62,710 nt of DNA from a virus. Of the stretch, positions 19,001 to 55,560 are shown in pieces. Both the position numbers and the translations under genes were made by a program. The stretch's first letter is position 1, and each line of letters starts with the position of its first letter. A model generated the notes under the pieces. The model made no database searches. It was not told the DNA's origin and saw only the letters and a list, made by a program, of their open reading frames with translations. The stretch covers positions 1 to 62,710 of IMG/VR virus record IMGVR_UViG_3300009285_005054; one strand, written 5' to 3'.

Positions 19001-19265
19001 TGGACTTTTTGAATTCCTTAAAACAGTCGAGGGTGGTGTACAACGAAACGATAACCTGGGGCAATTCATATTAAGCGTTCTTCCTCCAGGGGCGAGGCAG
19101 AAAGATGTTTACATTAATGAGGTTGCAGCAGAGGTAAACCGCCGAAGTGGAAAACAAGATATTGGACCATTTACACTAATATGGGAGATCGACCCAATAC
19201 TGTTGAGCCAGGTTATGTTATTGTCTCAAACCGGCTCTAAGTTGCAATTTGGAACAGAGCGCTGA
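15969..19265 (+). CDS. Large internal virion protein with P5-like C-terminal domain, 1098 aa
   Basis: The body is mostly helical and coiled-coil-like, with Ala/Gly-rich heptads (GATIAGTEATLAGAVATRAG). Residues ~979-1070 (NPAALRYVPRTGMKKGEGGFA, KFATPMGG, then NLGQFILSVLPPG) resemble the N-P-G-N-I-R phage structural domain (P5-like) seen in virion proteins and sometimes linked to cell-wall contact. ATG 15969 has GGGGAG six bases upstream; ATG 16008 (ATGA overlap) is the alternative. The DNA becomes AT-richer from about 18200, so the C-terminal third may be exchanged. It probably enters the host with the genome. Confidence 0.6.
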   Translation: MADTTKTGYLPPRMNNADTIAGILAEIGNAVSEGNTRRKDDLVRAMQIRVAKQQEQGLKIQNRRLAAETESFFRMLPDDERRQAAEAHYKTVAFAQQSKDLELQDELLKQVEVMDRLGTLKDPNLRAFLDNRRGVMAARQAAATAGATEAGAALTNEQATQLRDANAILKATQAVRIKTAEAVSRGELSVAEAQELVLTDLAGRIKTGLPEIWEKLGDQGLNEQQKFLERMYRGLGGDIERQKSLADIGATIAGTEATLAGAVATRAGAALTAQETRAKQYANDLVEASLDDDATTAQILGAMRLDEAQRAEMLAKIVRRRIDAAGLEALLTPEELKVVEDDAISRLTGFSEGAAQANQVLGNTVQFFTGFQKATGASRTARNATTKAKTRGDITSLYDATRTPGTGQAGLFSGSPRAFTTWNDAWNVLPEAYSTGQDWVAESDAAGRFSEATFYRQINDSQFHQLLNKIEIGIPGEDATTRARQGTDLIIPNEIADAAGLGNAISGDGEPLVVPGTDGESYNLPGYARVNVEDFQSAMRLQAGQRDMMMNAAAELTDAVSQGAANTEMLQNFVFSAMENMLQIPGVSRTAYGRALNAMVGAAKGAREATSIPGVSVTTEGAVGELPPGIVPEASYTPEEEAAAAARKTELAEGWVLETSATQVLDGMTHAGDAFGQKVQNAWGGESTVVDATATEFVVKDIRTGESYNILKSGAKLYGSVLEALPGGEFFANIAAGVGTGLFNKRKVAQIHAENNVLAIRGAVNYQEAISDVLYMEPSSVEDAQQILLDILWTMRNKPEVGVGLLMGSSDQYKNEIGRWRMYQQTLEGQALAAGKVPPPTAERPIAPKILNALNNRAAFGIAMKVKQIFAPGSPEGILLDRVLRLSPEQRYEDSVRQEERESSTDQVDLSDVGPTRAPGKVMPSTGGIYSPGEYREVSGKLPPGPATKGARRSLVNVSIAALEAKNAWVDMQDTEAIHQRNQNPAALRYVPRTGMKKGEGGFAKFATPMGGLFEFLKTVEGGVQRNDNLGQFILSVLPPGARQKDVYINEVAAEVNRRSGKQDIGPFTLIWEIDPILLSQVMLLSQTGSKLQFGTER

Positions 19266-22200
19266 TGGGATTCTGGGATTCCCCCTATCGAACCGCGCTT
19301 CCCGCCGCCCCTCACGCGGCGGCGCAGAGCCGTCGACGCGTGGAGATCTACGAAGTCGATCCCAAGATCCCCACCGATCCTTTCGAGCGCAGCATCGCCC
19401 GCCTGAAACGTCAGCAGCAAGAAGGACGTGACGGACTGTTCGGGAAGGTCCTTGAGCTCGTCATGCGCCTCGAAGCTCCGATGGCGGGGACGATTCACCG
19501 GAACTACCAGCAAGCAGTCAGCCGCGGGCACAAGCCGAATCTCGGCACATGGTTCGGGGCGCTTGCCGAAACCATTGCCGCCACCCCCGCTGGAATCCCG
19601 GCGGCGGCCGTGGCAGGTGGTGCGTTTGGTGGCCCTCCAGGAGCGCTGCTTGGATTGGGGATCGGCGCTGCAGCAAACGTGGCTGCGTTCGCCTATGATC
19701 CCAAGGAGTACCTCGCCAACATCCAGCAGATGCTCAAGGGCTATCGAGGATTGGTCCGCGCAGGAGATCACCCGGTTGACTTCGGTGCGACGCTTCAAGA
19801 GGCGGGCGTCCCGTTGGTCCCCTCGATGATTGGGGGCTTTGCACTCGCGATCCTCAACCCACTCGACCCCACGAACTATATCGGTTCCGGTGTCGTCAAG
19901 GGCGGAGCGAAGCTGCCATTGAAGATCTCCGGGCGTGTCCTGGATGATGGGCGCTTCATCCGAACAGCTTTTGGCGGCACCGATGAACTGGCCGCCGCGG
20001 CAGCAAAGACTGCGGCCCCCGAGGCCAAGATGGGGAAAGTGTTTGACCTGCCGTTGTCTCAGGCGGGGGCAAAGGCAAAAGCAGACATTGCGGCGAACTT
20101 CATGCGGAAGAAGATCGAGGCTCTTGGAGCGAAGAGCCCGGAGGAGTTGACTCAGTTCCTCGATGCCGCGCAGGGCAGGCTTTCGGAATCGATCAAGCAG
20201 CATGGCGCTCGTGGCGAAGAGTTCAACACCGCGTTTAGGACCTTCCTCGATGAGATGAAGCGCTTTGGTGGCGATACCCCAGCCTCACTCACTGCGATTC
20301 AGGAGTTCGGGCCGGAGGGCAAGGCGCTCATTGCGATGCAGCGGCCGGTCTACAACGCCATCGACACCTTTGAGAATCTTGGTGGGAAGAGCATTCGTCT
20401 GAAACGCACGCGCCTCGGACATGAACTCGCAGACGACGACGTTGTTGGGATGAAGCTCCGTCAGGCAGGCAAGATGGAGGACCTCGAAGAGTACCAGAAG
20501 GCGGTGCGCTGGCTCGAAGACCCGGAGCAGACCTTCAAGCACGTGATGGACCCGACGAAGTGGGACACGCCCATGCGGGACTACATCACGCTCACGCTCA
20601 ACGGGATTCTCCCTATCCCACGAGGCCGCCGCCCCTACATCTTCACTCCGTTCGAGGTTCCGTTGAGCCCCACGCTTTGGGGGAAGAAGTGGCGATTCGG
20701 GATCTACGGCTCCATCGGCGCAGCGTACGGCGGGGCGGCCATCGAGGCCGAGGATACCCCTCTCGAAGCTGCCAAGAAGGTCTTGATCAGCATGACTGCC
20801 GCTGGGCTGTTCGGCTCTCGTGCGCTACGAGATGCCGACCGAGGGCTTGCCCGAGCAGTTGTGGCGTTGCAGAACGGGATGAAGGTTCCGGTAGCGGAAG
20901 AAGCCAAGATCGACGCTGGGCTCATCCGTCGTTACGGATCCCAAGGTCTTGTTCAGATCGCGAAGGCTGGAGGACTCGTTCTAGGAACTCTCCAACAAGC
21001 CATGGGGTATTCCCTAGCCGCCGTAGGAGGAGAGGCATGGACGAACGTCGCTGCCAATCGGCCCCTTGTGAAGATGATTCGGCAGTGGGCGAAAGACTTG
21101 TCAAGTGCAGACGCCTTCAAGCAAATCGCGGCCTTTGAAGTTGCACGAGACATCGCCCGCGTCTACGACCTGATGGTGAAGATGGGCGTGCCTGTCGAGA
21201 AGATTGACGGCGCGAAGCTCTACCGAATTATGACGAACATCCTGGAGAGGAAACCAGTTGATCTCTGGAGAATCGCAAGAGAAGCCGCCGAAGCCCGTGG
21301 CGGAACGCCCGCCGACGTCATCACCCCCGGAACCGCTGAAGACGTTGGACCCATCGACGCCGCTACCCAGGCTCCCACACCAGAGCCGGCAACACCCGCA
21401 AGAGCTCCTGAAGGAGTAATGTCCGAAGAAGTCACACCGTCCGCTGAGGAAGTAGTGCCACCAACCCCCAGCGGAACTGCGGGACCCCAGCCCCCCGCAG
21501 GGGAGCCGCCGCTGACAGTTTCTACACCTCCGGTCCGTCCTCCTACGGAGGTGCTGATCGACGATCTGACCCCAGAGGAGACCCAAGAGCTCCTTGACGA
21601 GATGGTTCGTATCAATGAGGAACTGTCGGCAGGCGCGCTCCCACAACGTACTGTCGAGGACGCCCCGGAGCCTGTACAGACCTCCGTCGGCTGGATTCAA
21701 AAAACAAACCCGAAGATCGTTCTCGGATCCAAGACATCCATAAGGATTCCGGGCACTCGGGACATCCCTGCTCAGTACGCGTTGTTTGAGATTGAGGACC
21801 TCCGTGCATCTCATTCTCGTCTAGTCGACGGGCAGCTTGTACTTGGGGATGCGTACCTGCACAAATGGGGGTACCCGGGGGATCCTGACGCCCCCATGGG
21901 CGCACAGAACATCAACTCAACACGAGACTACGCCAATGATCCGGAGTTCCTGCGTCAGCTCGGCCAGCTTTTCGGTGTTGACCCCGCACACGCGGAGGCG
22001 TTCAACCCGGCGTTGGTGATCGACACGTCCATCACGCCAGAGACCGGCCCGGCGAGCATAGGCGTCTTTGAGGACAAGTCGGTTGTCCTTGGGGGAAGTC
22101 GACGAACCGCATACGAACAGAAGCTCTACGCCTCCGGTTCAGAAGCACACATAGAGCGCTACCTCAATCGGCTACGTGAGACACTACCCTCCGTTGGAAT

Positions 22201-25200
22201 TCAACCAGAGGCTCTTTCGGATTTCCGTCATCCTGTCTTGGGACGCCTGATGGATCGCACTCCGAGCTCGCCGTCAGAACTCCGCGCGCTAGCCTCCGAG
22301 CTGAACACTGTCGCTACCGCAGGTAGTAACGCCGTCAAGGAGATGGCTGCACGATTGGGCGGCCTCTCAATCCCCAAGATCAACGAGCTCACGGAGATCT
22401 TCGAGCAGCTTCCAGATGAAGGCGCATTGACGACGATCCTGCAATCGCCGCTTCCCGTGACGCGGAACCTCATCCGGTGGATGCGGGAGAACAACGTCCT
22501 TCGGCAGACGGAGCTCGGTGCGGCCCTCAAAGACTCGAAGGACGCCTTCACCGAAGCAGGTGCAATCCAGATCAAGAACATGCTTGAGGGGATGATCCTC
22601 AACGACGAGGCCGCACGAGCGCTCATGGGCGAGCGTGTGCGAGCGAGCTTAGGGATGATGAAGAGCTCCCGGCACATTCTTCGTGCTTCTCAGTCCGACC
22701 CCTTGTTTCTCAGCCGCCTGAACCAGGCACTGCGGCACTACAAGCTCTACACCGAATCCAGTCTTCCACTCCAGCAGTGGAAGAACGAACGCCTCGTCAC
22801 GGGCGGGACCAACTGGGACCAGCTCGAACGGGCTCAGAAGATCCTCTTCCACTACTTCGACGAGAACTCAACGGCGTCGAACCGATTCCAAGAGGGCTTC
22901 CAGAAGTACGCGGACTTCTGGCGTGCACAGGCAGGGGAGAAGGCTGCGCAAGCGCGCCTCTTCGACGTGCCGGAGACACAGAGTCCAGAGGTGGCATTTG
23001 AGGCCGCGTTCCAAACGAAGTCGGGTGCTACAGAACTTGGCGGGCTCGTCGGATCGGCGCGGGAGGAGTACGCACAGAACCTGCGGGCGGTTGTACGAGG
23101 AGAAGCCAGGACTCAATTTCAGAAGACGCTCCGGGCGGCATGGAAAGAAGACAAGCTGCCAACGCTTGCAGAAGAGCAAATTGAACCATTCCTGGAATTC
23201 TACGATGCGCTCGGACGGGGCGCGATGCGTGCTCGTCCAGACATGTTCAAGACCCTCGACGACTGGTACAAAGCCGTAGAACTTCAAGTCCCCGGCACTC
23301 AAATAAAGGGGGCTATAGCAGAGGTAACGTATGCCAACAAGACACTAGCTAGAATGACTTTCTACGCCAATGCTGACTTTAGCGCCCTGGTGCATGAGCC
23401 GGGGCACCTACTTAGAGACATACTTCCAGAGTACGATATAGACACGATATTCGATGTTTACGATGCCCTATCTAGGACCCGTCGCAAACGTCCTCTAGGA
23501 GAAGAACTTCGTAGAATAGTGCGTAGAGGCTCTGCCATTAATGCCTATGTACCAAGTGAATCAGACTGGAGATTCTTTGAAGAAAGCTTCGCCCGAGATC
23601 TGGAGCGTTATCTCGTCATCGGAAAGGCCCCCAATGACGAACTCAAACCTCTCTTTGAGAAGATCGCTCACTGGATGCGAGTAGAGGTAGAGATACTTGC
23701 CAAGATGTACGGATATGGCAAAGTGACGAAGCTTACCGCTAAGCAGGTGCCAGACGCCGCGACCCGCATCTTCCTGGAGGAGCTCCCGAACTTCAAGCTC
23801 AACCCACGCATCAAGGAGATTTTCGACCGATTCACCGGTGTTGGGGCAGAGGCACTCGGAGAGCCCAAGTTGTTCGACCAAGCTCTACAACGTGCTCCCA
23901 CCCGAGAAGAGCTCATTCGTCACTACGCCTTCGAGCACAACGTGAACGCCGCGCAGGCACAGGCCGCGCTCGATGGCCCGGACGAAGATATCGTTCAGTG
24001 GCTGGAGAGTTTCGCGGCTCAATATGGTGGCGCGGAGCACTTCTATGCGGCGAAGGCGAAGGTGTTTGAGAAGGTACCTGAGGCCGCTACGGGACCTGTT
24101 GCAACCAAGGGAGTGGTCGGCTTCTCAGTGCCTCGTGAGGAACTCGTAAAGCCACAACGACTTGAGGGCCCCACAGGAAAGATCGTGGAGATACCAGGGC
24201 TCGAGAATCCTGCCCCGGACATCATCTCAAATGCAAAAACTGGTGAACCAATCACGGTCTCAACAGTGCGTGGGTTTGGACGTGCGGAGGCCAATGCCCC
24301 GTACAGCCCTGGAATGCCAGGCGCAGTCCTTGGCCCCGCTCGGTACTCTGCGATCAACTTGGAAGCAGCACAGGAGTTCGGGCCAAACATTGAGCGCCTA
24401 GAAGTCACCCTACAGAATCCGCTGGTGATCTCAACCGACGCACAGTGGGCTGATCTTCTTGCGTCGACCGGCGTGAAGGTGACTCGGCCAGAGGACATCC
24501 TGTTTGCTGCGGCGGAAGAACGCGCTGCCTTGGTGTCGGCTGTCCGACAGCAGCTTGAGCAGATCTACGATGGCGTGATCGTCAATGTACCACAATTCAC
24601 CGATAGCTACCCCGTGGGCACACGCAACTCTATAAAGCGGCTTCGGGAGTGGTTCGGCGATACGCAGGTCATTGAGTTCAGCCCGCCGCCCAGGGAACAA
24701 TTGCGTATCCGCGAGGGCTTTGACGACGCCCGCCAGTTGAACAACGCCCAGAAGAACATGAACCAGCAGGAGGGCGCCAGCGTCGTGAAACGTGAGTCCG
24801 GGTTTGTGACGCGCAACAGGGTCGATCCCGAAGCCTACAAGGACACCGTCTCTATGGCAGGAGGCTACTTCGAGGACGCACGGATGCAGGGCGATGTGAC
24901 ACCTCCCAACGTCCTCGCCGCCGCCATGACAAACGACGCAATCAGGATGGTGATTGCAAGAGCGATGGGCGTCAGCGTCAACGCAGAGGAAATCACCTCG
25001 AAGTTTCTTCAGGATACTGCCGAGTCCGTAGGGTTAGGAAGTGAGCTCATGGACCTGATCAAAGCCGCTCGGAAGGAATTCGGGATCGCCGACGATACCG
25101 AAGACCTGCTGCTCGGGTACGTAGCGCCGCTCTTAGGTATTCGGCACGGATACCGCGCACTGCACATGCAGGAGCAGTTCTTCGGAATCGGGACCGCCGC

Positions 25201-28200
25201 CTTCGAGAGCGAGATGATCCACTACAGCCACCTGCTGTTTGACGACCGCGCCCGGGCACATCTGTCCGGGCAGGGCTTCATGGAGCCCCTTCACAAACGC
25301 TGGCAGAAGATCGGAGTCTTTGCACCGTTCTCGTTGAGACGGCAGTTCCGACCGCAGTTCATGCTCGTCGACGCCCGATTCGCACGTCCAGGAGAACTTG
25401 GACAGCCCACCGGGCTGATGCTCGATGAGGCGATAATTCCGTTCGACGACGACTCGATCCAGTTGTTCCTCGATCCCGAGAAGCTGATGAGTGCTGCGGA
25501 GGCCCTTGCGCAGAAGGACGGCGATCTGCGCACGATGTTCAGGATGTCGCTCCCTGACGGAGAGACGGAAGAATCCCTGCTCAAAGCAGACAGCTACTTC
25601 CGCCCACGGATGTCCTCGCAGACCGTCCGATACAAGGATCAGGACTGGTACGTGCTGGAGCTCCCGGCGAGCGATACCCCCATGACCGTCAAGAACGCGC
25701 TCTACCGTAGTGGGACACTCCGGCTGGATACGATGGAAGATGCGCTCAAGCTGACGCCCGAGGCGCTTGCTGAGGCTTACCCCGGGATGAAGCCGAGAGT
25801 GGTGAAGTCCCTTCGAGGAGAACCACTCTACGTTATGGATCCCGCACTCTCCTTCGCCGCACGGCAAGCAAGCAGCAAGAAGGCGGTGCTGACCGCCGAC
25901 CTGCTCAACTGGACGATGAGCAATCCCACGCATAGTGTGCCGGCGATGACGAGCTCTCCTGACGACTGGGTACAAGACCTCGCCGTTCTGCTAGGCAAGG
26001 ATTTCGACGACAAACGCTCCGTTGCAAGCCTGATGAAAAACTACGTTCTCGCCCACGCCGGCGGTGGGAACACGTACTTCGTCGTGAAGCGGCCGAAGCC
26101 CTTGTCGGCGCCATCCTCTGAGATCGTCGACCTCTCCGACGTGTTCGAGTTCCGCAACTGGAAGGGGATAGACCCCGAAGAGGCTGCGAAGCGGCTCGGT
26201 GCAACCCCGGACGACGTCACGAAGTGGCTTGAAGATGATGGGACGCTTGGGGGGCGTCACCAATTCGTCTACATCAAACGCGACGCGGAGGGGAAGCGAC
26301 ACCGGTGGACTGGATGGGATGACCAGAAGAAGCACGCCGGCCCACAGCATCGGCTACGTGACGATCAGGTTCAGGACATGATGAGCTATCGGCAGGTCAA
26401 GTCCATCCTCGACGACCCCGACGCCACAGATGCTGCACGAGAAGGTGCCGAGCGGGCGCTTCGGATACGGTCGAGCGCCATTCGAGATCCCGAGTCGGCA
26501 CGGCTCCTCGACTACGCTCACAAGGCGTACATGAGCCCAGGGCAGCGGTTCCGAGGCATCGGACGGAACTTCTGGCAACGGTACACGGAGCTCTCCCGAG
26601 AGACCAACCCAGAGACGGGAGAATGGCTTCGTACTCGCAAGGCAGCATGGAACGAGGCCATCGAAGAGCTCAAGCAAGTCTACGACGTGGACAACTTCTT
26701 TAAGGAGCCTGGTGCCCTTGCTATGGCGGGGTTCGAGACGCTTTCCTCGATGTGGGCGAGGCTCACCATCGCGGGTTGGCCTAACTCCCGTGTTCGGGAC
26801 CTTGTCGGGAACACGTTCATGCACACGCTGGGCGGGATGCACTTCTTAGACCCCGACGCGATGGACAGTACCATCCAGGCCGGCATGATGCTGCGTGGGA
26901 ACAAGGTCAACGTCACACTCAACGGAATTCAACATACGACCGAAGACACCATCCGAAGCGCCCGCGGCCACGCGCTTGTCAGCTCCCTCACTGGAACTGA
27001 CGCGGCTCTTGACGAAGGCTGGGAAGCACTCCAGCAGACCGTATACCGGGATGTGCCGCACAATCCAAGAGAGTACATCGACCAAACGCTCTTCGGTGTC
27101 GTTCGAGACGCTGCGGGGAAGAAGCGACATTTCGTCGGCATGAACCCCACGACCGGAATCTTCTACCGTAACGTCCTGATACCAGCCAGCGCGGGCGCTC
27201 TCGGAGGAGCGACACTCGAACAAGGAGATGCAGAGGAACGTGCCAGAGCAGCCTTGAAGGGCGCTGCTCTTCTCGGCGGGCTTGGGACGTTCTTCGGAGT
27301 TGCTCGACTTGCCGCTGGACGCGCCGGCAACCGGTTTAGCATGGGGAGTGTGGACTTCCACAACGCCGCACGCACGAACCGGTGGGTCCACGAACCCTAC
27401 GCTGGTGCCGACTCTGGGTACACCTACTATGTGCGTCGTGTCAGTCAGAACGCGGAAGACATACAACGGCTCGCCTACTGGCTCTTCCTTCGGAAGAAGG
27501 GCTTCAATGAGGCGGACGCCGCACGCAAGGTGCATGACACGATCTTCTCCGCGGCCTCCGTTCCACAGGGGTGGCTAAAGTATCGAAAGTTCATGCCGTT
27601 CATGCGGTGGACGGCGTTCAACGTGCCGAATCAGTTCCGTGGCCTACTCGAGAATCCGAGGATGATGTTCCGCGTCGCGCGTGGTGTCGGCGAGATGCAG
27701 AACAACTACGACGTGAGCGACCGTCGGTACATACCGGAGTTCGTCCAAGGGCAGCCACACATCGCATGGGCGAAGGACCCGAAGACGAATGAGGGCAAGT
27801 ACTACGTCCTCGGCAACTGGCTTCCGCAGGCGGACCTACTCCAATGGCTCGACCCGGCACACTTGGATCGAACCGTTTTGGGAATGATTACGCCGGTCCT
27901 CATGGAAGGCTTCCAGCAGGCCGCCAATCGAGACTTCTACTTCGAGAGGCCCATCGACAAGCTCGATACACGTGGTGGTGGAGGGATGCAGGTCGAGCAG
28001 TTCGCCGGGTTCGATGTGAAAAGTCGCGTCAAGCACTTCCTCGGCACTTCGTTCCGCTTCCTGAAGGAGGTCAACAACGTCTCTCAGGGGGACCCGTTCC
28101 GCTTCCTCGAATCCCGAGCAGCCGAAACGGAACGTCGACATCGGGAGAAGCAACTCGACTTCCGAGAGGTGCCGCGGTGGAACACCATTACGCTGATACA

Positions 28201-28621
28201 GAAACTCAGTACCTCGGGCTTCGGTTACATGCCGCGTTCGTACGAGTTCGGAGAGGATCGTCAGAAGCGGATAGTCGTGCGACGCATCCAGGACACCGTG
28301 AGTCAAGCACGGCAAATCGAGCGTCGGGCGAGCTACCTCACTTCGCCTGCAACGAGACGCGCACAACTACGGGAGGTTCTTTCGCCGTTCTTCAAGCACA
28401 TTCCAGGGTTCCGCACCACGCCGACCTCAGTGATGACGCCCGGGGACATTCGTCAGCTTCATCGCATGATGGAGAAACTCGACGAGACGCAAGAAGAACG
28501 GCGCCCCCGAAGGAGCGCCGCCCCTGAGAAGTCCGAGAAGCCTGCAGTCAGAACGGAACGTCGTCGTCGTCCACCGGCGGAATCGCCGACGCCTTCTCCT
28601 TCAGCGCCGCCGTCTCCATGA
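19265..28621 (+). CDS. Giant polyvalent internal virion protein, 3118 aa (ParB-like, metallopeptidase, ART-like, LPD38-like)
   Basis: It overlaps the previous stop by 1 bp. Visible regions in order are: Gly/Ala-rich hydrophobic segments (~105-143 and ~476-517); a Pro/Thr-rich linker (~690-810); a DdrB-like ParB domain (~814-946, with FEIEDLRASHS and VVLGGSRRTAYE); a zincin-type peptidase with HEPGH at 1377-1381 and a downstream FFEESFARDLERYL helix near 1440; an ADP-ribosyltransferase-like region (~1655-1810, ARYSAINLEAAQEFG ... NPLVIS ... YDGVIV); and an LPD38-like C-terminal part (~2640-2810, GALGGATLEQGDAEE, then FMPFMRWTAFNVPNQF). These are known parts of phage 'polyvalent proteins', which are injected with DNA to counter host defence. 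I see no RNA polymerase motif of the N4 type. Domain calls are from memory of family patterns. Confidence 0.75.
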   Translation: MGFWDSPYRTALPAAPHAAAQSRRRVEIYEVDPKIPTDPFERSIARLKRQQQEGRDGLFGKVLELVMRLEAPMAGTIHRNYQQAVSRGHKPNLGTWFGALAETIAATPAGIPAAAVAGGAFGGPPGALLGLGIGAAANVAAFAYDPKEYLANIQQMLKGYRGLVRAGDHPVDFGATLQEAGVPLVPSMIGGFALAILNPLDPTNYIGSGVVKGGAKLPLKISGRVLDDGRFIRTAFGGTDELAAAAAKTAAPEAKMGKVFDLPLSQAGAKAKADIAANFMRKKIEALGAKSPEELTQFLDAAQGRLSESIKQHGARGEEFNTAFRTFLDEMKRFGGDTPASLTAIQEFGPEGKALIAMQRPVYNAIDTFENLGGKSIRLKRTRLGHELADDDVVGMKLRQAGKMEDLEEYQKAVRWLEDPEQTFKHVMDPTKWDTPMRDYITLTLNGILPIPRGRRPYIFTPFEVPLSPTLWGKKWRFGIYGSIGAAYGGAAIEAEDTPLEAAKKVLISMTAAGLFGSRALRDADRGLARAVVALQNGMKVPVAEEAKIDAGLIRRYGSQGLVQIAKAGGLVLGTLQQAMGYSLAAVGGEAWTNVAANRPLVKMIRQWAKDLSSADAFKQIAAFEVARDIARVYDLMVKMGVPVEKIDGAKLYRIMTNILERKPVDLWRIAREAAEARGGTPADVITPGTAEDVGPIDAATQAPTPEPATPARAPEGVMSEEVTPSAEEVVPPTPSGTAGPQPPAGEPPLTVSTPPVRPPTEVLIDDLTPEETQELLDEMVRINEELSAGALPQRTVEDAPEPVQTSVGWIQKTNPKIVLGSKTSIRIPGTRDIPAQYALFEIEDLRASHSRLVDGQLVLGDAYLHKWGYPGDPDAPMGAQNINSTRDYANDPEFLRQLGQLFGVDPAHAEAFNPALVIDTSITPETGPASIGVFEDKSVVLGGSRRTAYEQKLYASGSEAHIERYLNRLRETLPSVGIQPEALSDFRHPVLGRLMDRTPSSPSELRALASELNTVATAGSNAVKEMAARLGGLSIPKINELTEIFEQLPDEGALTTILQSPLPVTRNLIRWMRENNVLRQTELGAALKDSKDAFTEAGAIQIKNMLEGMILNDEAARALMGERVRASLGMMKSSRHILRASQSDPLFLSRLNQALRHYKLYTESSLPLQQWKNERLVTGGTNWDQLERAQKILFHYFDENSTASNRFQEGFQKYADFWRAQAGEKAAQARLFDVPETQSPEVAFEAAFQTKSGATELGGLVGSAREEYAQNLRAVVRGEARTQFQKTLRAAWKEDKLPTLAEEQIEPFLEFYDALGRGAMRARPDMFKTLDDWYKAVELQVPGTQIKGAIAEVTYANKTLARMTFYANADFSALVHEPGHLLRDILPEYDIDTIFDVYDALSRTRRKRPLGEELRRIVRRGSAINAYVPSESDWRFFEESFARDLERYLVIGKAPNDELKPLFEKIAHWMRVEVEILAKMYGYGKVTKLTAKQVPDAATRIFLEELPNFKLNPRIKEIFDRFTGVGAEALGEPKLFDQALQRAPTREELIRHYAFEHNVNAAQAQAALDGPDEDIVQWLESFAAQYGGAEHFYAAKAKVFEKVPEAATGPVATKGVVGFSVPREELVKPQRLEGPTGKIVEIPGLENPAPDIISNAKTGEPITVSTVRGFGRAEANAPYSPGMPGAVLGPARYSAINLEAAQEFGPNIERLEVTLQNPLVISTDAQWADLLASTGVKVTRPEDILFAAAEERAALVSAVRQQLEQIYDGVIVNVPQFTDSYPVGTRNSIKRLREWFGDTQVIEFSPPPREQLRIREGFDDARQLNNAQKNMNQQEGASVVKRESGFVTRNRVDPEAYKDTVSMAGGYFEDARMQGDVTPPNVLAAAMTNDAIRMVIARAMGVSVNAEEITSKFLQDTAESVGLGSELMDLIKAARKEFGIADDTEDLLLGYVAPLLGIRHGYRALHMQEQFFGIGTAAFESEMIHYSHLLFDDRARAHLSGQGFMEPLHKRWQKIGVFAPFSLRRQFRPQFMLVDARFARPGELGQPTGLMLDEAIIPFDDDSIQLFLDPEKLMSAAEALAQKDGDLRTMFRMSLPDGETEESLLKADSYFRPRMSSQTVRYKDQDWYVLELPASDTPMTVKNALYRSGTLRLDTMEDALKLTPEALAEAYPGMKPRVVKSLRGEPLYVMDPALSFAARQASSKKAVLTADLLNWTMSNPTHSVPAMTSSPDDWVQDLAVLLGKDFDDKRSVASLMKNYVLAHAGGGNTYFVVKRPKPLSAPSSEIVDLSDVFEFRNWKGIDPEEAAKRLGATPDDVTKWLEDDGTLGGRHQFVYIKRDAEGKRHRWTGWDDQKKHAGPQHRLRDDQVQDMMSYRQVKSILDDPDATDAAREGAERALRIRSSAIRDPESARLLDYAHKAYMSPGQRFRGIGRNFWQRYTELSRETNPETGEWLRTRKAAWNEAIEELKQVYDVDNFFKEPGALAMAGFETLSSMWARLTIAGWPNSRVRDLVGNTFMHTLGGMHFLDPDAMDSTIQAGMMLRGNKVNVTLNGIQHTTEDTIRSARGHALVSSLTGTDAALDEGWEALQQTVYRDVPHNPREYIDQTLFGVVRDAAGKKRHFVGMNPTTGIFYRNVLIPASAGALGGATLEQGDAEERARAALKGAALLGGLGTFFGVARLAAGRAGNRFSMGSVDFHNAARTNRWVHEPYAGADSGYTYYVRRVSQNAEDIQRLAYWLFLRKKGFNEADAARKVHDTIFSAASVPQGWLKYRKFMPFMRWTAFNVPNQFRGLLENPRMMFRVARGVGEMQNNYDVSDRRYIPEFVQGQPHIAWAKDPKTNEGKYYVLGNWLPQADLLQWLDPAHLDRTVLGMITPVLMEGFQQAANRDFYFERPIDKLDTRGGGGMQVEQFAGFDVKSRVKHFLGTSFRFLKEVNNVSQGDPFRFLESRAAETERRHREKQLDFREVPRWNTITLIQKLSTSGFGYMPRSYEFGEDRQKRIVVRRIQDTVSQARQIERRASYLTSPATRRAQLREVLSPFFKHIPGFRTTPTSVMTPGDIRQLHRMMEKLDETQEERRPRRSAAPEKSEKPAVRTERRRRPPAESPTPSPSAPPSP

Positions 28622-49509: not shown

Positions 49510-50439
49510 GTGGGATGCGTGAGTTGGCACTTTTTGCAGGGGCGGGAGGCGGCCTGTTGGGCGGGCTCCTCCTTGGCTGGCGCACCGTCTGTGCTTGTGA
49601 ACTTGATCCCTGGTGCCGAGAATGCCTCCTCCAGCGGCAGCGGGACGGACTCCTGCCGCGATTCCCGATCTGGGACGACGTGCGAACGTTTCAAGGGTTG
49701 CCCTGGCGAGGCCACGTCGACGTCATCTCCGGAGGGTTCCCCTGCCAGGACATATCCGTTGCGGGTCGAGGCGCTGGCATCGATGGTGCTCGAAGCGGTC
49801 TCTGGAGCCACATGGCGCGAATCGTCGATGAGGTTCGACCGCGAGTTGTCTTCGTGGAGAACGTGCCGAACCTTGTTCGACACGGACTTGCCCGAGTCCT
49901 CGGTGATCTTGCCGCGGTGGGGTACGATGCGCGATGGTGTGTGCTTGGCGCTCGACACGTCGGGGCTCCGCATCGCCGAGACCGGCTCTGGTTGCTGGCC
50001 TACCGCGACAGTTCACGGACTACACAATCGCAAGGGGGCTTCCCCGAACAGCGGCGACGGGCTCTCGACGGCGGTGAAGCGGTTCGGAACGTCGACGACC
50101 TCCTCGGAGACGCTTTACGGGACATCGGCACACCAGACGAGAGCTGGGAGTCTCCTGACGAGCGTGAAGGGCACGATGTTCCCGACGCCGAGAGCGAACA
50201 AGTGGGGCCTGCCCGATTCGCACGGCTCTGTCGAAGCATGGGCGACACCGACCGCACATCCGCGCACCCATACCCAGCGACAGGTCGCAAGTGGGGCGCA
50301 GTTAGCGAATCAGGTTGGTGGGAGTCTGAATCCCGCTTGGGTCGAATGGTTGATGGGTTGGCCCATCGGGTGGACCGGCTCAAGGCGCTTGGGAATGGGC
50401 AGGTTCCTCTCGTGGCTGCGGTCGCATGGACTGTGCTGA
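49510..50439 (+). CDS. Overlapping +1-frame ORF inside the methyltransferase gene
   Basis: This 309-codon frame has no good SD and a poor N-terminus. From about base 49800 it reads like a phage protein family I recognise: SSWRTCRTLF, then LPRWGTMRDGVC, ETGSGCWPTAT, MFPTPRANK, WATPTA, and WVEWLMGWPIGWT near the end. At the same bases the methyltransferase frame reads its own conserved motifs. It may be translated by internal initiation or frameshift, or be only a frame-shadow of a strongly conserved gene. Confidence 0.35.
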   Translation: MGCVSWHFLQGREAACWAGSSLAGAPSVLVNLIPGAENASSSGSGTDSCRDSRSGTTCERFKGCPGEATSTSSPEGSPARTYPLRVEALASMVLEAVSGATWRESSMRFDRELSSWRTCRTLFDTDLPESSVILPRWGTMRDGVCLALDTSGLRIAETGSGCWPTATVHGLHNRKGASPNSGDGLSTAVKRFGTSTTSSETLYGTSAHQTRAGSLLTSVKGTMFPTPRANKWGLPDSHGSVEAWATPTAHPRTHTQRQVASGAQLANQVGGSLNPAWVEWLMGWPIGWTGSRRLGMGRFLSWLRSHGLC

Positions 50440-50495
50440 TGAACATGCTGCCGCCGGGTGGCCTGCGCCCGGAGCAGGAAAGGCTGTTCAACTGA
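49515..50495 (+). CDS. C5-cytosine DNA methyltransferase (Dcm type)
   Basis: The 326-residue protein has motif I FAGAGGG (residues 7-13), motif IV GGFPCQDIS with catalytic Cys77, motif VI E115-N-V, motif VIII RHVGAPHRRDRLW, and a motif IX/X region ending RVDRLKALGNGQVP. All catalytic parts are present. The target-recognition region is between ~165 and ~270. No restriction enzyme is adjacent, so an anti-restriction or regulatory role is more likely than a full R-M system. From about 49800 its DNA also encodes a second protein-like frame (see separate entry). Confidence 0.9.
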   Translation: MRELALFAGAGGGLLGGLLLGWRTVCACELDPWCRECLLQRQRDGLLPRFPIWDDVRTFQGLPWRGHVDVISGGFPCQDISVAGRGAGIDGARSGLWSHMARIVDEVRPRVVFVENVPNLVRHGLARVLGDLAAVGYDARWCVLGARHVGAPHRRDRLWLLAYRDSSRTTQSQGGFPEQRRRALDGGEAVRNVDDLLGDALRDIGTPDESWESPDEREGHDVPDAESEQVGPARFARLCRSMGDTDRTSAHPYPATGRKWGAVSESGWWESESRLGRMVDGLAHRVDRLKALGNGQVPLVAAVAWTVLMNMLPPGGLRPEQERLFN

Positions 50496-51026: not shown

Positions 51027-51495
51027 ACCGTGTGAGACCAAGATCGCCACTACGGCAGAGCACTTCGAGCTCTTCCGGGCCGCGTGCGCGAAGTACCTGC
51101 AACTCTTCGGGATCACCGAGTGGAAGGTGTACTACGGCCTGGACGCCGCACCGGACTGTTTCGCCGACACCATCCTGAACACCCAAGATTCGGTGGCGAC
51201 GATTCGGCTGACTGCGCAATGGAACGTGACGTACTGGCCACTGACCGCGGAAACGCTCGACCAGAACGCACGCCACGAAGTGATCCACGTGCTGATCGGC
51301 AGCCTCACGGGCGCCGCGTATTCCCGGTGGGTCGCAAGTGAGGGGCAAGTGGATCGCGTTGTGGAGCGGACGGTGCATCAGATCGAGCACGTGCTGGACG
51401 CCGTAGCGGGGAACGCCTTGGCCCCGCGAATGCCCTGGCTTGGGCCACCACTCACGTTCTCACAACCCCAAGGCGAGAAGGAGAACGCATCGTGA
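51019..51495 (+). CDS. Putative zinc metallopeptidase-like protein (HEVIH)
   Basis: The TTG start at 51019 overlaps the preceding TGA; TTG 51007 is an alternative. The 158-residue protein has RHEVIHVLIGSLTG with H86-E-V-I-H90, the zincin H-E-x-x-H pattern, and a later acidic SEGQVDRVVERTVH helix that may give the third ligand. Its small size fits SprT/minimal zincins of phages. The substrate is unknown. It lies immediately upstream of an HU gene. Confidence 0.6.
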   Translation: MTEPCETKIATTAEHFELFRAACAKYLQLFGITEWKVYYGLDAAPDCFADTILNTQDSVATIRLTAQWNVTYWPLTAETLDQNARHEVIHVLIGSLTGAAYSRWVASEGQVDRVVERTVHQIEHVLDAVAGNALAPRMPWLGPPLTFSQPQGEKENAS

Positions 51496-51764
51496 ACAAG
51501 CAGGACCTCATCAACGAGGTGTACTCCCGCATCGAGTACATAACGAAGAGGGACATTACCAAGGTCATTGACGTGGTGCTGGAGGCGATCAAGCAGGCCA
51601 CGCGAGAGGAGGAGGTCAGGCTCATCAACTTCGGCACGTTCGAGTCTCATGTCCGAGAGGCGCGCGTCGGGCGCAACCCCATTACAGGCGAGAGGGTCGA
51701 CGTCCCTCAGAAGCGCGCCCCGGTCTTTCACGCGGCGCAGGCGTTCAAGAACGCGATGCAGTAG
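51492..51764 (+). CDS. HU/IHF-family DNA-binding protein
   Basis: The 90-residue protein of standard HU length. It starts GTG 51492 (4-bp overlap): MNKQDLINEVYSRIEYITKR, INFGTFESHVREARVGRNP, then TGERVDVPQKRAPVF. The arm motif GRNPxTGExVxVP is diagnostic. It would bend and compact phage DNA or help at the origin. Confidence 0.95.
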   Translation: MNKQDLINEVYSRIEYITKRDITKVIDVVLEAIKQATREEEVRLINFGTFESHVREARVGRNPITGERVDVPQKRAPVFHAAQAFKNAMQ

Positions 51765-52875: not shown

Positions 52876-55410
52876 TCAATCCTCCATACAGAGTGCGATC
52901 CCTCGCCAGATTCTCACCCGGCTGAGATCGCCATCTTTTACATCACCCCGAGCCTCCCTCACGTTCGTAAGTCCTGCAATCGTATCGTTGAAGGTTCGTC
53001 TGCCTACTGGTTTTACGCCTTCCTTAGAGCACCAGTCCATGGAGTATACCCGGTAGAAGACCTCCTTGCTGACCGCGAAGATCTTCCTATCGTCATGCTC
53101 TAGAAGCACTGGGATGGTGTGTGGGGAAAGAATCGTGCAGGAATCGACGAACGCCATTGTGGACTCGTTGACCACGCGCATCCGAATCATCTGCTCCTCC
53201 ACACTGTGTGGGATCTCAAACTTCCCCGCCGCCTCCAACGCACGCACGCCCAGCAGAGCGTGATTGAACAATCCGGACATGAGCTCCGGGGTAGTCATTC
53301 TGGCGACAAGCACGTCTCGTTTGATCTCGTTCGAGGTGTTTCGGAAGACGTTCCCGAAGAAGATCGGAAGCCACCGGATGTAGTAGGCATCTGTGCGCTC
53401 AGAGGAGCGTGGGATTTCGTTGCAGGAGAAGATTAGCCGGGCAACGGGACGAAACGCGATGGGGTTCTCAAACTTGCGTTGCGCCACGATCATGTTCCCG
53501 GACACGAACTTCTTGAACTCTGCCGTCTCTATGAGTTGCTTCGGGGAAATGTCGTCGCCGATGTTCAGCAGCTTGTCCTTGACCTCAATGCGTTCCCACT
53601 GGCTGTCGAACATGTTCTGAAGGGTAGACGACCCCGTGTTACATCTTCCGATGAACGCGGTAAGAACCTCCAGGAAGGCGCTCTTGCCGGTTCCTTGGGG
53701 ACCCACGAGAAGAAACGCCTTCTCGTGGCGTGTTGTCGGGAGAAGGAAGTAGCCGAGTATGGTGTAGATGAGTTTGAGGCAATCCTCTGGGAAAATGGAT
53801 CGGATGAAGTCTTTAATGGGTTCGCAGGTGGCGGTGGGGTCGTAGTGTACAGGAATCTGGATGGTGGAGACGGCCTCGGGAGTATGCGGACGGATCTCGC
53901 CGGTCTTCCAACTCACCCATCCGGATATCGTGTTTATCCATGTGTGCCGGTCATCGTTCTTGTCGAGCATCCCTGAATTGGATGTGTCGTCGGCGTCTGC
54001 GGCGAGCGTCTCCTGCTTGAGCGCATCTAGGATTTGCTCAGCGAGAAACGGCTTCCAGTGTTCCGCGAGCGTCTCGTGAATGAGTTCCCGAGCGATTCCT
54101 GCGCCGTTGCTTCGATAGACCCCGTTCTCATAGTGGTAGAGCATCGATGGGCTACCGTCTGGAGTTGGCCATGTGAACCAGTGCTCGAAGCGCGCGAGCG
54201 CGGTTCCGAAGAGCGCAGGTCGGAAGGGGTTCCGAAGTTTCTCGCCGAAGCCTTTCTGCACGAGGTTTTGCCGCATCCACCGGACACCCTCGATCTCTGT
54301 CGGGATGTGGATTGGCTCCTGCACGGGGAGTTCGATCACCGTGGCGGGGCGCGACTTCTTGGGCTTAGGCGTGTCTGGGAAGTGGTCGTCTGGGGGTTGG
54401 CGTAGAACCTTGGATCGGAACCCTTGTGAGACACGTCCGAAGAGCAAGACGCCGTCGTGAGGTTCTCCGAAGGCGTCTCTTCGCGTGGGGGTGCGGATTC
54501 TCTTGTAGGCACTCCCGATGGTGGCGATGATCTCTTCCTCTGGGAAGGGGTGTGGGTTCTGCTTTCGTTTCCTACCGAGCTCATCCGCCTTCCGTGCGGC
54601 GGTCATCAGCCTTTCGAGGGCCTCTTCGTAGGGGTAGTTGCAGCCTGCCATGTCACATGCGGCGGCGAACAGTTGATTGTTCCGGTAATCGGCGGTGGGC
54701 TTCAAGATGAAGTTGGTGGTACGGGCGGAAAGGCCGCCTCGTACGTTGCCATCAACGGGCTTCGCCGGATAGCTCCATACGGTTGGGCGATCTTGGAGAA
54801 AATCGTAGCCAGCGGGACTGAACTGTGCGATGTTGGTGCGGCTGGGAAGCTGGTCGTCTGTCTCGCCGGTTCGCAGGTTGAGGTGAGTGTAGACGGTCTG
54901 TCCGGATTGATGAACAGATGGTGGCGCGACTACGTAGCCGCCATCTCCCCGAAGTTCCCACCCGGGCGCGATGTCGGATCGTAACCCGATGTGGAACTCA
55001 GGGCCGGGGTGAACGTAGTAGAAGTGGAGTCCGCGCCAGGTCTTGACGACGAACGTCTTCGGGAATCCTTGTTCGTACAGCCAGTTGCGATGTTGGCCGT
55101 CGGCGTCCTTGTCGGAGTCGTAGTCGAAAACGATGAGGTTCGAGACGGTGCCACAGATGATTGCGATGTTCGCGGTTGGCCATCGTGTCCACCAGGCGAG
55201 GATCTGCTCTTTTGTGGCGCGCCCCTTCTTGAAACGATCCCATGTGATGGGCGGTATCTTCCCGAGGGATCGTCCTTGTGGGAAGTCCACCGAAGGACTC
55301 TCCCGATCCGTTGACGGATGTAGGGGAATGATCGAGAATTGTTGCTCGTGGTAGTACAGCGCGGCGTTGCGCAGGCGGTCGGATGGTATGGCGAGTGGTT
55401 CGACTTTCAT
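52876..55410 (-). CDS. Bifunctional primase-polymerase / D5-type helicase
   Basis: About 844 residues, starting at MKVEPLAIP (AGGG upstream); a longer frame adds an unlikely N-terminus. The N-terminal archaeo-eukaryotic-type prim-pol domain has IVFDYDSD (~92-99), WRGLHFYYVHPG and LRGDGGYVVAPPSVH. The C-terminal superfamily-3 helicase has Walker A VGPQGTGKSAFLEVL (~568-582), Walker B KLLNIGDDIS and motif C LIFSCNEIPRS (~656). It would prime and unwind DNA, and possibly extend it, at the phage origin. Last three genes on this strand are packed without gaps. Confidence 0.9.
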   Translation of the reverse strand: MKVEPLAIPSDRLRNAALYYHEQQFSIIPLHPSTDRESPSVDFPQGRSLGKIPPITWDRFKKGRATKEQILAWWTRWPTANIAIICGTVSNLIVFDYDSDKDADGQHRNWLYEQGFPKTFVVKTWRGLHFYYVHPGPEFHIGLRSDIAPGWELRGDGGYVVAPPSVHQSGQTVYTHLNLRTGETDDQLPSRTNIAQFSPAGYDFLQDRPTVWSYPAKPVDGNVRGGLSARTTNFILKPTADYRNNQLFAAACDMAGCNYPYEEALERLMTAARKADELGRKRKQNPHPFPEEEIIATIGSAYKRIRTPTRRDAFGEPHDGVLLFGRVSQGFRSKVLRQPPDDHFPDTPKPKKSRPATVIELPVQEPIHIPTEIEGVRWMRQNLVQKGFGEKLRNPFRPALFGTALARFEHWFTWPTPDGSPSMLYHYENGVYRSNGAGIARELIHETLAEHWKPFLAEQILDALKQETLAADADDTSNSGMLDKNDDRHTWINTISGWVSWKTGEIRPHTPEAVSTIQIPVHYDPTATCEPIKDFIRSIFPEDCLKLIYTILGYFLLPTTRHEKAFLLVGPQGTGKSAFLEVLTAFIGRCNTGSSTLQNMFDSQWERIEVKDKLLNIGDDISPKQLIETAEFKKFVSGNMIVAQRKFENPIAFRPVARLIFSCNEIPRSSERTDAYYIRWLPIFFGNVFRNTSNEIKRDVLVARMTTPELMSGLFNHALLGVRALEAAGKFEIPHSVEEQMIRMRVVNESTMAFVDSCTILSPHTIPVLLEHDDRKIFAVSKEVFYRVYSMDWCSKEGVKPVGRRTFNDTIAGLTNVREARGDVKDGDLSRVRIWRGIALCMED

Positions 55411-55560
55411 AGTAGCCCTCATTGAGAGGTAGCCAACGTCGCGCTCCAAGGACGACGCTGACTGAAATAGAATGTCGCAAGTGTACACCAGGACGGCGGT
55501 TGCCGCAAGGGGCCGATGTGCGGTACGGTGTAGGTACCCGACACGGCGAAGGGGGATTGA

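Follow-up and report, generated by a model that had tools for sequence, protein, structure and literature searches.

A phage C5-cytosine methyltransferase gene with two frames under coding selection and motif IX in the +1 frame

Introduction

The described systems closest in layout to the locus reported here are M.EcoHK31I and M.EaeI, a further system of the same kind. In M.EcoHK31I (YGGCCR; credited to Lee, Kam and Shaw, 1995), the β subunit is said to be encoded in an alternative frame within α, and it is reportedly short, with a start well inside the α gene. The larger subunit of this naturally split enzyme (PMC3439449) carries motifs I-VIII and X and the smaller one only motif IX (PMC3404938). 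M.AquI (CYCGRG) is a two-polypeptide C5 methyltransferase with motifs I-VIII in its α chain (PMC3404938); its β chain holds motifs IX and X. In a literature search with most subscription papers outside its scope, we found no overlapping or alternative-frame phage cytosine methyltransferases, which is weak evidence. A phage methylase interrupted by an HNH insertion that is out of frame (PMC11855218) is a different phenomenon and was set aside.

The locus described here encodes α in the methyltransferase frame (A) and β in the +1 frame (B). Like M.EcoHK31I, it has motifs I-VIII and X in a first polypeptide and motif IX in a second one that is read from another frame of the same DNA, and it appears to be of the M.EcoHK31I kind, as judged by motif layout and frame and not by sequence homology. 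It differs in that β overlaps α almost end to end from a start at +4, whereas the M.EcoHK31I β is, as noted above, short and internal, and in that the TRD, predicted in α for M.EcoHK31I, would lie in β, as split relatives of the locus suggest. It also differs from M.AquI, since motif X is in α; the M.AquI arrangement is found only in those split relatives (L177, L180, L181, L202, L240, L254). The single-chain enzymes M.HhaI and M.HaeIII have a catalytic domain like α but, unlike the locus, read motif IX in frame with the rest of their one chain.

Results

The locus and its two chains

The window, that is, the whole stretch of 62,710 nucleotides analyzed, is a tailed-phage record from IMG/VR with terminase-like and P22-portal-like genes. 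It also contains a 3118-aa open reading frame (19265-28621), a sulfotransferase-like ORF (PF13469, 43519-44601) and a nucleotidyltransferase-like ORF (PF00483/PF12804, 44315-45376) that share 287 nt, read in different frames, an HU/IHF-like DNA-binding protein (phrog_379, 51492-51764) about 1 kb downstream of the methyltransferase, and a large primase/polymerase-like gene (phrog_864, phrog_1156; 52876-55488, minus strand) on the strand opposite to its neighbours.

Frames A and B are both open in the window (Table 1). An initial annotation had proposed that a C5-cytosine methyltransferase frame and an open +1 frame occupy the same bases, and this is what is found, A being assigned by its match to PF00145. 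The motif pairs that it had read from shared bases hold as well, namely VFVENVPNLV/SSWRTCRTLF, DVPDAESE/MFPTPRANK and GRMVDGLAHRVDR/WVEWLMGWPIGWT. The overlap that it had placed at 49800-50439 is real but too short, as the +1 frame is open across 49510-50439 and B covers nearly the whole methyltransferase gene.

Table 1. Positions in the window of the two coding frames and of their main features
Feature	Position	Strand	Description
α (frame A), C5-cytosine methyltransferase catalytic subunit	49515..50495	+	326 aa; motifs I-VIII and X
β (frame +1, B)	49519..50439	+	306 aa; GTG start, TGA stop; carries motif IX
Nested starts, ATGCGTG	49515..49521	+	A ATG at 49515, B GTG at 49519
A motif IV Pro-Cys, aa 76-77	49740..49745	+	catalytic Cys; invariant in 67 homologues
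A motif VI ENV, aa 115-117	49857..49865	+	same bases read WRTC in B
Variable segment	50008..50325	+	A: unconserved, predicted disordered; B: PTP-repeat segment
B motif IX, LNPAWVEWLMGWPIGWT	50326..50376	+	most conserved part of B
A motif X, GNGQVP	50391..50408	+	G293, N294 and V297 invariant

Frame A contains the catalytic motifs I, IV (PC), VI (ENV) and VIII of a C5-cytosine methyltransferase as well as motif X (GNxxP), which aligns with canonical motif X at an hhalign E of 0.003. Its match to phrog_363 is 5.7e-68, and the matches to PF00145 (3e-33) and M.HhaI (9e-16) are confined to residues 2-199 and 2-168, respectively. The motif IX that a single-chain enzyme has in the same frame was not found in A, where PF00145 stops at residue 199. 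In homologue alignments E115 and N116 of A are invariant, and W113 and T115 of B are nearly so. The single-chain AF2 model of A has a large domain with pLDDT above 90, which Foldseek matched to M.HhaI over about 168 columns, and a confident motif X helix. Residues from about 186 to 292, where the TRD and motif IX would be expected, are disordered in the model (pLDDT about 36-60), and α alone is predicted to be without a folded small domain.

Frame B matches phrog_1008 (1.6e-20), phrog_26627, phrog_35493 and phrog_27243, and had no match in Pfam, NCBIfam and PADLOC searches. Its conserved core across homologues reads LNPxWVEWLMGWPIGWT, and in the window B motif IX and the A motif X region are superimposed on shared bases. 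The PTP-repeat segment of B is probably the target-recognition region. Searches of solved structures with B and with a profile of the split β chains gave no reliable match, and the single-chain AF2 model of B (mean pLDDT of 54.8) gave no fold match by Foldseek. A subunit that needs its partner in order to fold could give such a poor model, and so could a badly sampled alignment. Taken as a pair, the AF2 models of A and B are consistent with two halves of one enzyme, though neither is proof.

Motif IX in B, split relatives and a matched control

By itself, B matches canonical motif IX weakly (hhalign E of 0.15), and the motif IX assignment in the window rests on the split relatives. These come from Spirochaetia (L202), Paraburkholderia (L240), Kiritimatiellae (L254) and the actinophages Medusa, Ryadel and Lilbooboo (L177, L180, L181). 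In all of them α terminates after motif VIII and a +1-frame β holds motifs IX and X in a single chain, and a profile of this split-β IX-X region aligns with that of ordinary C5 methyltransferases (LTPREAARLQGFPDDY...GNAVPP) with an hhalign probability of 86 and an E of 4.7e-6. In the single-chain phrog_116, the α catalytic part at 212-402 is followed by the split-β tail at 409-497. The extent of α-β overlap varies among the split relatives, which may represent intermediates of the dual-coded gene or be derived from it. We also noticed loci with the catalytic domain and the B tail in one frame, a fusion without motif X (L011 at 746-1642, L013, L014, and also L115); when L027 is taken for comparison, the fusion appears to stem from an indel at a G run, and sequencing error, decay or a natural fusion are all possible.

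For a matched control, C5 methyltransferases were gathered from eight genomes that carry the dual gene. Enzymes with an in-frame motif IX have about 283 stops in the +1 frame vs 295 expected, and their match to B is none or negligible. IX-like sequence is absent from all seven A-type enzymes of these genomes, and all seven carry B, at 192-398 bits. This control links the presence of B to the absence of motif IX in A.

Frame-specific coding selection

Loci were collected with A-only, B-only and whole-A queries, and 152 of 166 have the catalytic domain and motif X in one ORF with B as its +1 frame. Openness of B was judged by a shuffling test in which synonymous codons are permuted within each gene, which preserves the A protein and its codon usage. 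For the window by itself (GC 64%), B openness is borderline, with P about 0.06, and the case therefore rests on the homologues. Across 89 homologues of <80% identity, interior +1 stops number 28 vs 381.2 expected and the +2 control frame shows no depletion (1209 vs 1113), these being counts from related homologues whose events are not independent. The initial annotation had named +1 stops in many homologues as one observation that would speak against dual coding, and such stops are nearly absent. Between the ENV motif and the end of the variable region, B has no stop in 12,424 codons of 85 non-redundant homologues where 160 are expected, and this holds also in loci of 44-50% GC. Along the gene, the observed and expected +1 stops in 85 genes are 73/66.9 in the first 12 codons, 33/104.5 thence to motif IV, 2/50.5 from motif IV to ENV, 0/94.6 in ENV plus 50 codons, 0/65.5 in the variable region, 2/58.3 before motif X and 81/51.2 after it. 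The constraint starts and stops at the boundaries of the B gene, with no depletion at either edge.

A B profile was trained on half of the homologues and scored on the held-out genes and on their A-synonymous shuffles. The held-out genes reach 316 bits vs 149 for the shuffles, and all shuffles are beaten in 45 of 45 genes. The shuffled score of about 150 bits is an echo of A's own motifs in the B profile, and it gauges how much of the resemblance noted in the initial annotation is automatic. That annotation had raised two possibilities, an overlapping gene that is conserved and an artefact of long standing in annotation; the overlapping gene is supported and the artefact accounts for a part only. 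The real B score also exceeds the best of 100 shuffles in each of 13 distant phage and plasmid loci, whose hosts include Bacteroides, Porphyromonas, Vibrio, Mycobacterium and Paenibacillus. In a regional analysis, the variable residues 166-262 of B score 40.9 bits vs 3.2 for shuffles (all shuffles beaten in 44 of 45 genes) and residues 263-306 score 82 bits vs 18 (45 of 45 genes). The window was excluded from training in this analysis, with 80.6 vs 18.2 bits for the motif IX region. The B-specific signal is strong at residues 101-306 and weak at 61-100. There is thus little constraint at 61-100 beyond that of A, and the long N-terminus of β may have little function.

Extra constraint at A-synonymous sites, which the initial annotation had suggested looking for, is present: of the codons for conserved residues, a fraction of only 0.18 differs synonymously over the motif IX region vs 0.52 between the PC and ENV motifs. 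Synonymous divergence over the whole gene is modestly below that of flanking genes (0.50 vs 0.60, from few flanking pairs), and the regional and close-pair synonymous analyses are more telling than this comparison. Frames A and B are both under protein-coding selection, and the dual-coding reading of the locus is strongly supported.

Selection for a nested start

The start sequence of the window, ATGCGTGAG, places the two start codons 4 nt apart, and among homologues with a recognizable start 69 of 75 have a B ATG or GTG exactly 4 nt past the A start. An extra in-frame GTG for B at 49510 is present in the window; the conserved codon is the one at +4. With the B start conserved at this position, the choice of A codon 2 is constrained. 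Where that codon is Asn, AAT outnumbers AAC by 61:1, compared with 132:135 elsewhere in the same genes before G, and where it is Arg, CGT is used in 8 of 9 CGN codons, compared with 9 of 90 elsewhere in these genes. Conserved flanking genes, as a control, have AAT:AAC at codon 2 in the ratio 8:8. Codon 2 of A is chosen so as to create the start of B.

Distribution and annotation

Bacterial genomes were scanned with B only, by a single pattern (PxWVEWLM); of the 80 loci kept as best, 72 have the full dual arrangement, and such a selection gives no true frequency. These best 80 loci span Proteobacteria, Planctomycetes, Verrucomicrobia, Spirochaetes, Bacteroidota, Firmicutes and others. The Salmonella phage copy has a relative in 4 of 5426 E. 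coli genomes. Phage records vary, with A only, B only or both frames annotated. B alone is annotated in Pseudomonas phage phPA-G, Mycobacterium phage DosHalletts (gp71) and Stenotrophomonas phage SOVA965, and both frames in Paenibacillus phage Shelly (noted as g55 internal gene) and Escherichia phage K1ind2. The families matched by α and β, phrog_363 and phrog_1008, are both labelled DNA methyltransferase, and nothing in the labels tells that one gene, read in two frames, underlies both.

Discussion

Motif IX lies in B and motifs I-VIII and X lie in A, and the locus very probably encodes a two-subunit C5-cytosine DNA methyltransferase with α (A) and β (B) on the same DNA. In such an enzyme α would provide the catalytic large domain (AdoMet site, Pro-Cys nucleophile, ENV and motif VIII) together with the motif X helix, and β would contribute motif IX and probably the target-recognition segment. 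With motif IX supplied by β, the enzyme would be complete only on assembly of both chains. With 4 nt between them (ATGNATG or ATGCGTG), both starts would be served by a single translation-initiation region, so that one mRNA would give both chains. We infer that B is translated, that A and B assemble and methylate DNA, and that the likely role in the phage would be methylation of its own DNA against host restriction. The initial annotation had described +1-frame proteins of this type as often labelled methylases, but B is not a second methylase and is best read as the subunit that brings motif IX to this one enzyme.

An annotation artefact, in which B would be no more than an untranslated reflection of the motifs conserved in A at high GC, would explain the roughly 150 bits that these motifs alone yield in the B profile and the borderline openness of B in the window. 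As the whole story it is already refuted by the stop-free B codons, loci of 44-50% GC included, by real B scores above every shuffle, by the selected B start codon and by ordinary methyltransferases without a comparable +1 effect, and we give it hardly any credence. An artefact of codon usage was also considered and is ruled out by the synonymous shuffles and the matched control. The low synonymous divergence, taken alone, could fit an RNA or DNA element in place of a second protein; however, stop depletion is restricted to the +1 frame and absent in +2, and conservation of the start codon and of the B protein profile reaches across distant loci. This frame specificity rules out the RNA-element reading, whose probability we regard as negligible.

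Two further readings accept a product from B. Ribosomal frameshifting from A would join the N-terminus of α to the C-terminus of B, which would then have no start of its own. The peak of B-specific constraint downstream of the ENV motif and the one-frame fusions in L011, L013 and L014 would be in line with it, but the selection on A codon 2 that keeps the B ATG or GTG, together with the stop depletion in the N-terminal third, points to initiation at +4. A frameshift product would moreover be without motif X, and the difference between L011 and its relative L027 around a G run resembles an indel, so that frameshifting seems unlikely. The other reading, which is very unlikely, makes B a separate protein, such as a DNA-binding or anti-restriction factor, whose overlap with the methyltransferase gene is incidental. 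B is without a confident fold and is sometimes called a hypothetical protein by annotators, as such a factor might be; yet it has motif IX where A is without one, in the split relatives a single B chain holds both IX and X, the two parts are joined in phrog_116, and none of the genome-contig loci from the B-only query had B without adjacent methyltransferase sequence.

A few dual-frame enzymes like the two-subunit methyltransferase proposed here are already known, and that of the window belongs to a large, mostly mis-annotated phage and bacterial family. We see about an even chance that this family is a class of phage and prophage C5 methyltransferases, present in many bacterial phyla, that is obligately dual-coded, with the +4 starts setting the subunit ratio and with the motif IX and X regions sharing bases, so that the subunits and the specificity region could not evolve apart. 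Gene callers retain one frame, so that one subunit of this common phage enzyme is regularly missing from records or entered as a hypothetical protein or a methylase; α expressed alone may then resemble a dead enzyme. A simple rule follows for annotation, that an A-type methyltransferase without an in-frame motif IX calls for inspection of its +1 frame. The family represents a very long same-strand overlap with a function proposed for both products and with many homologues, which makes it useful for studies of overprinting.
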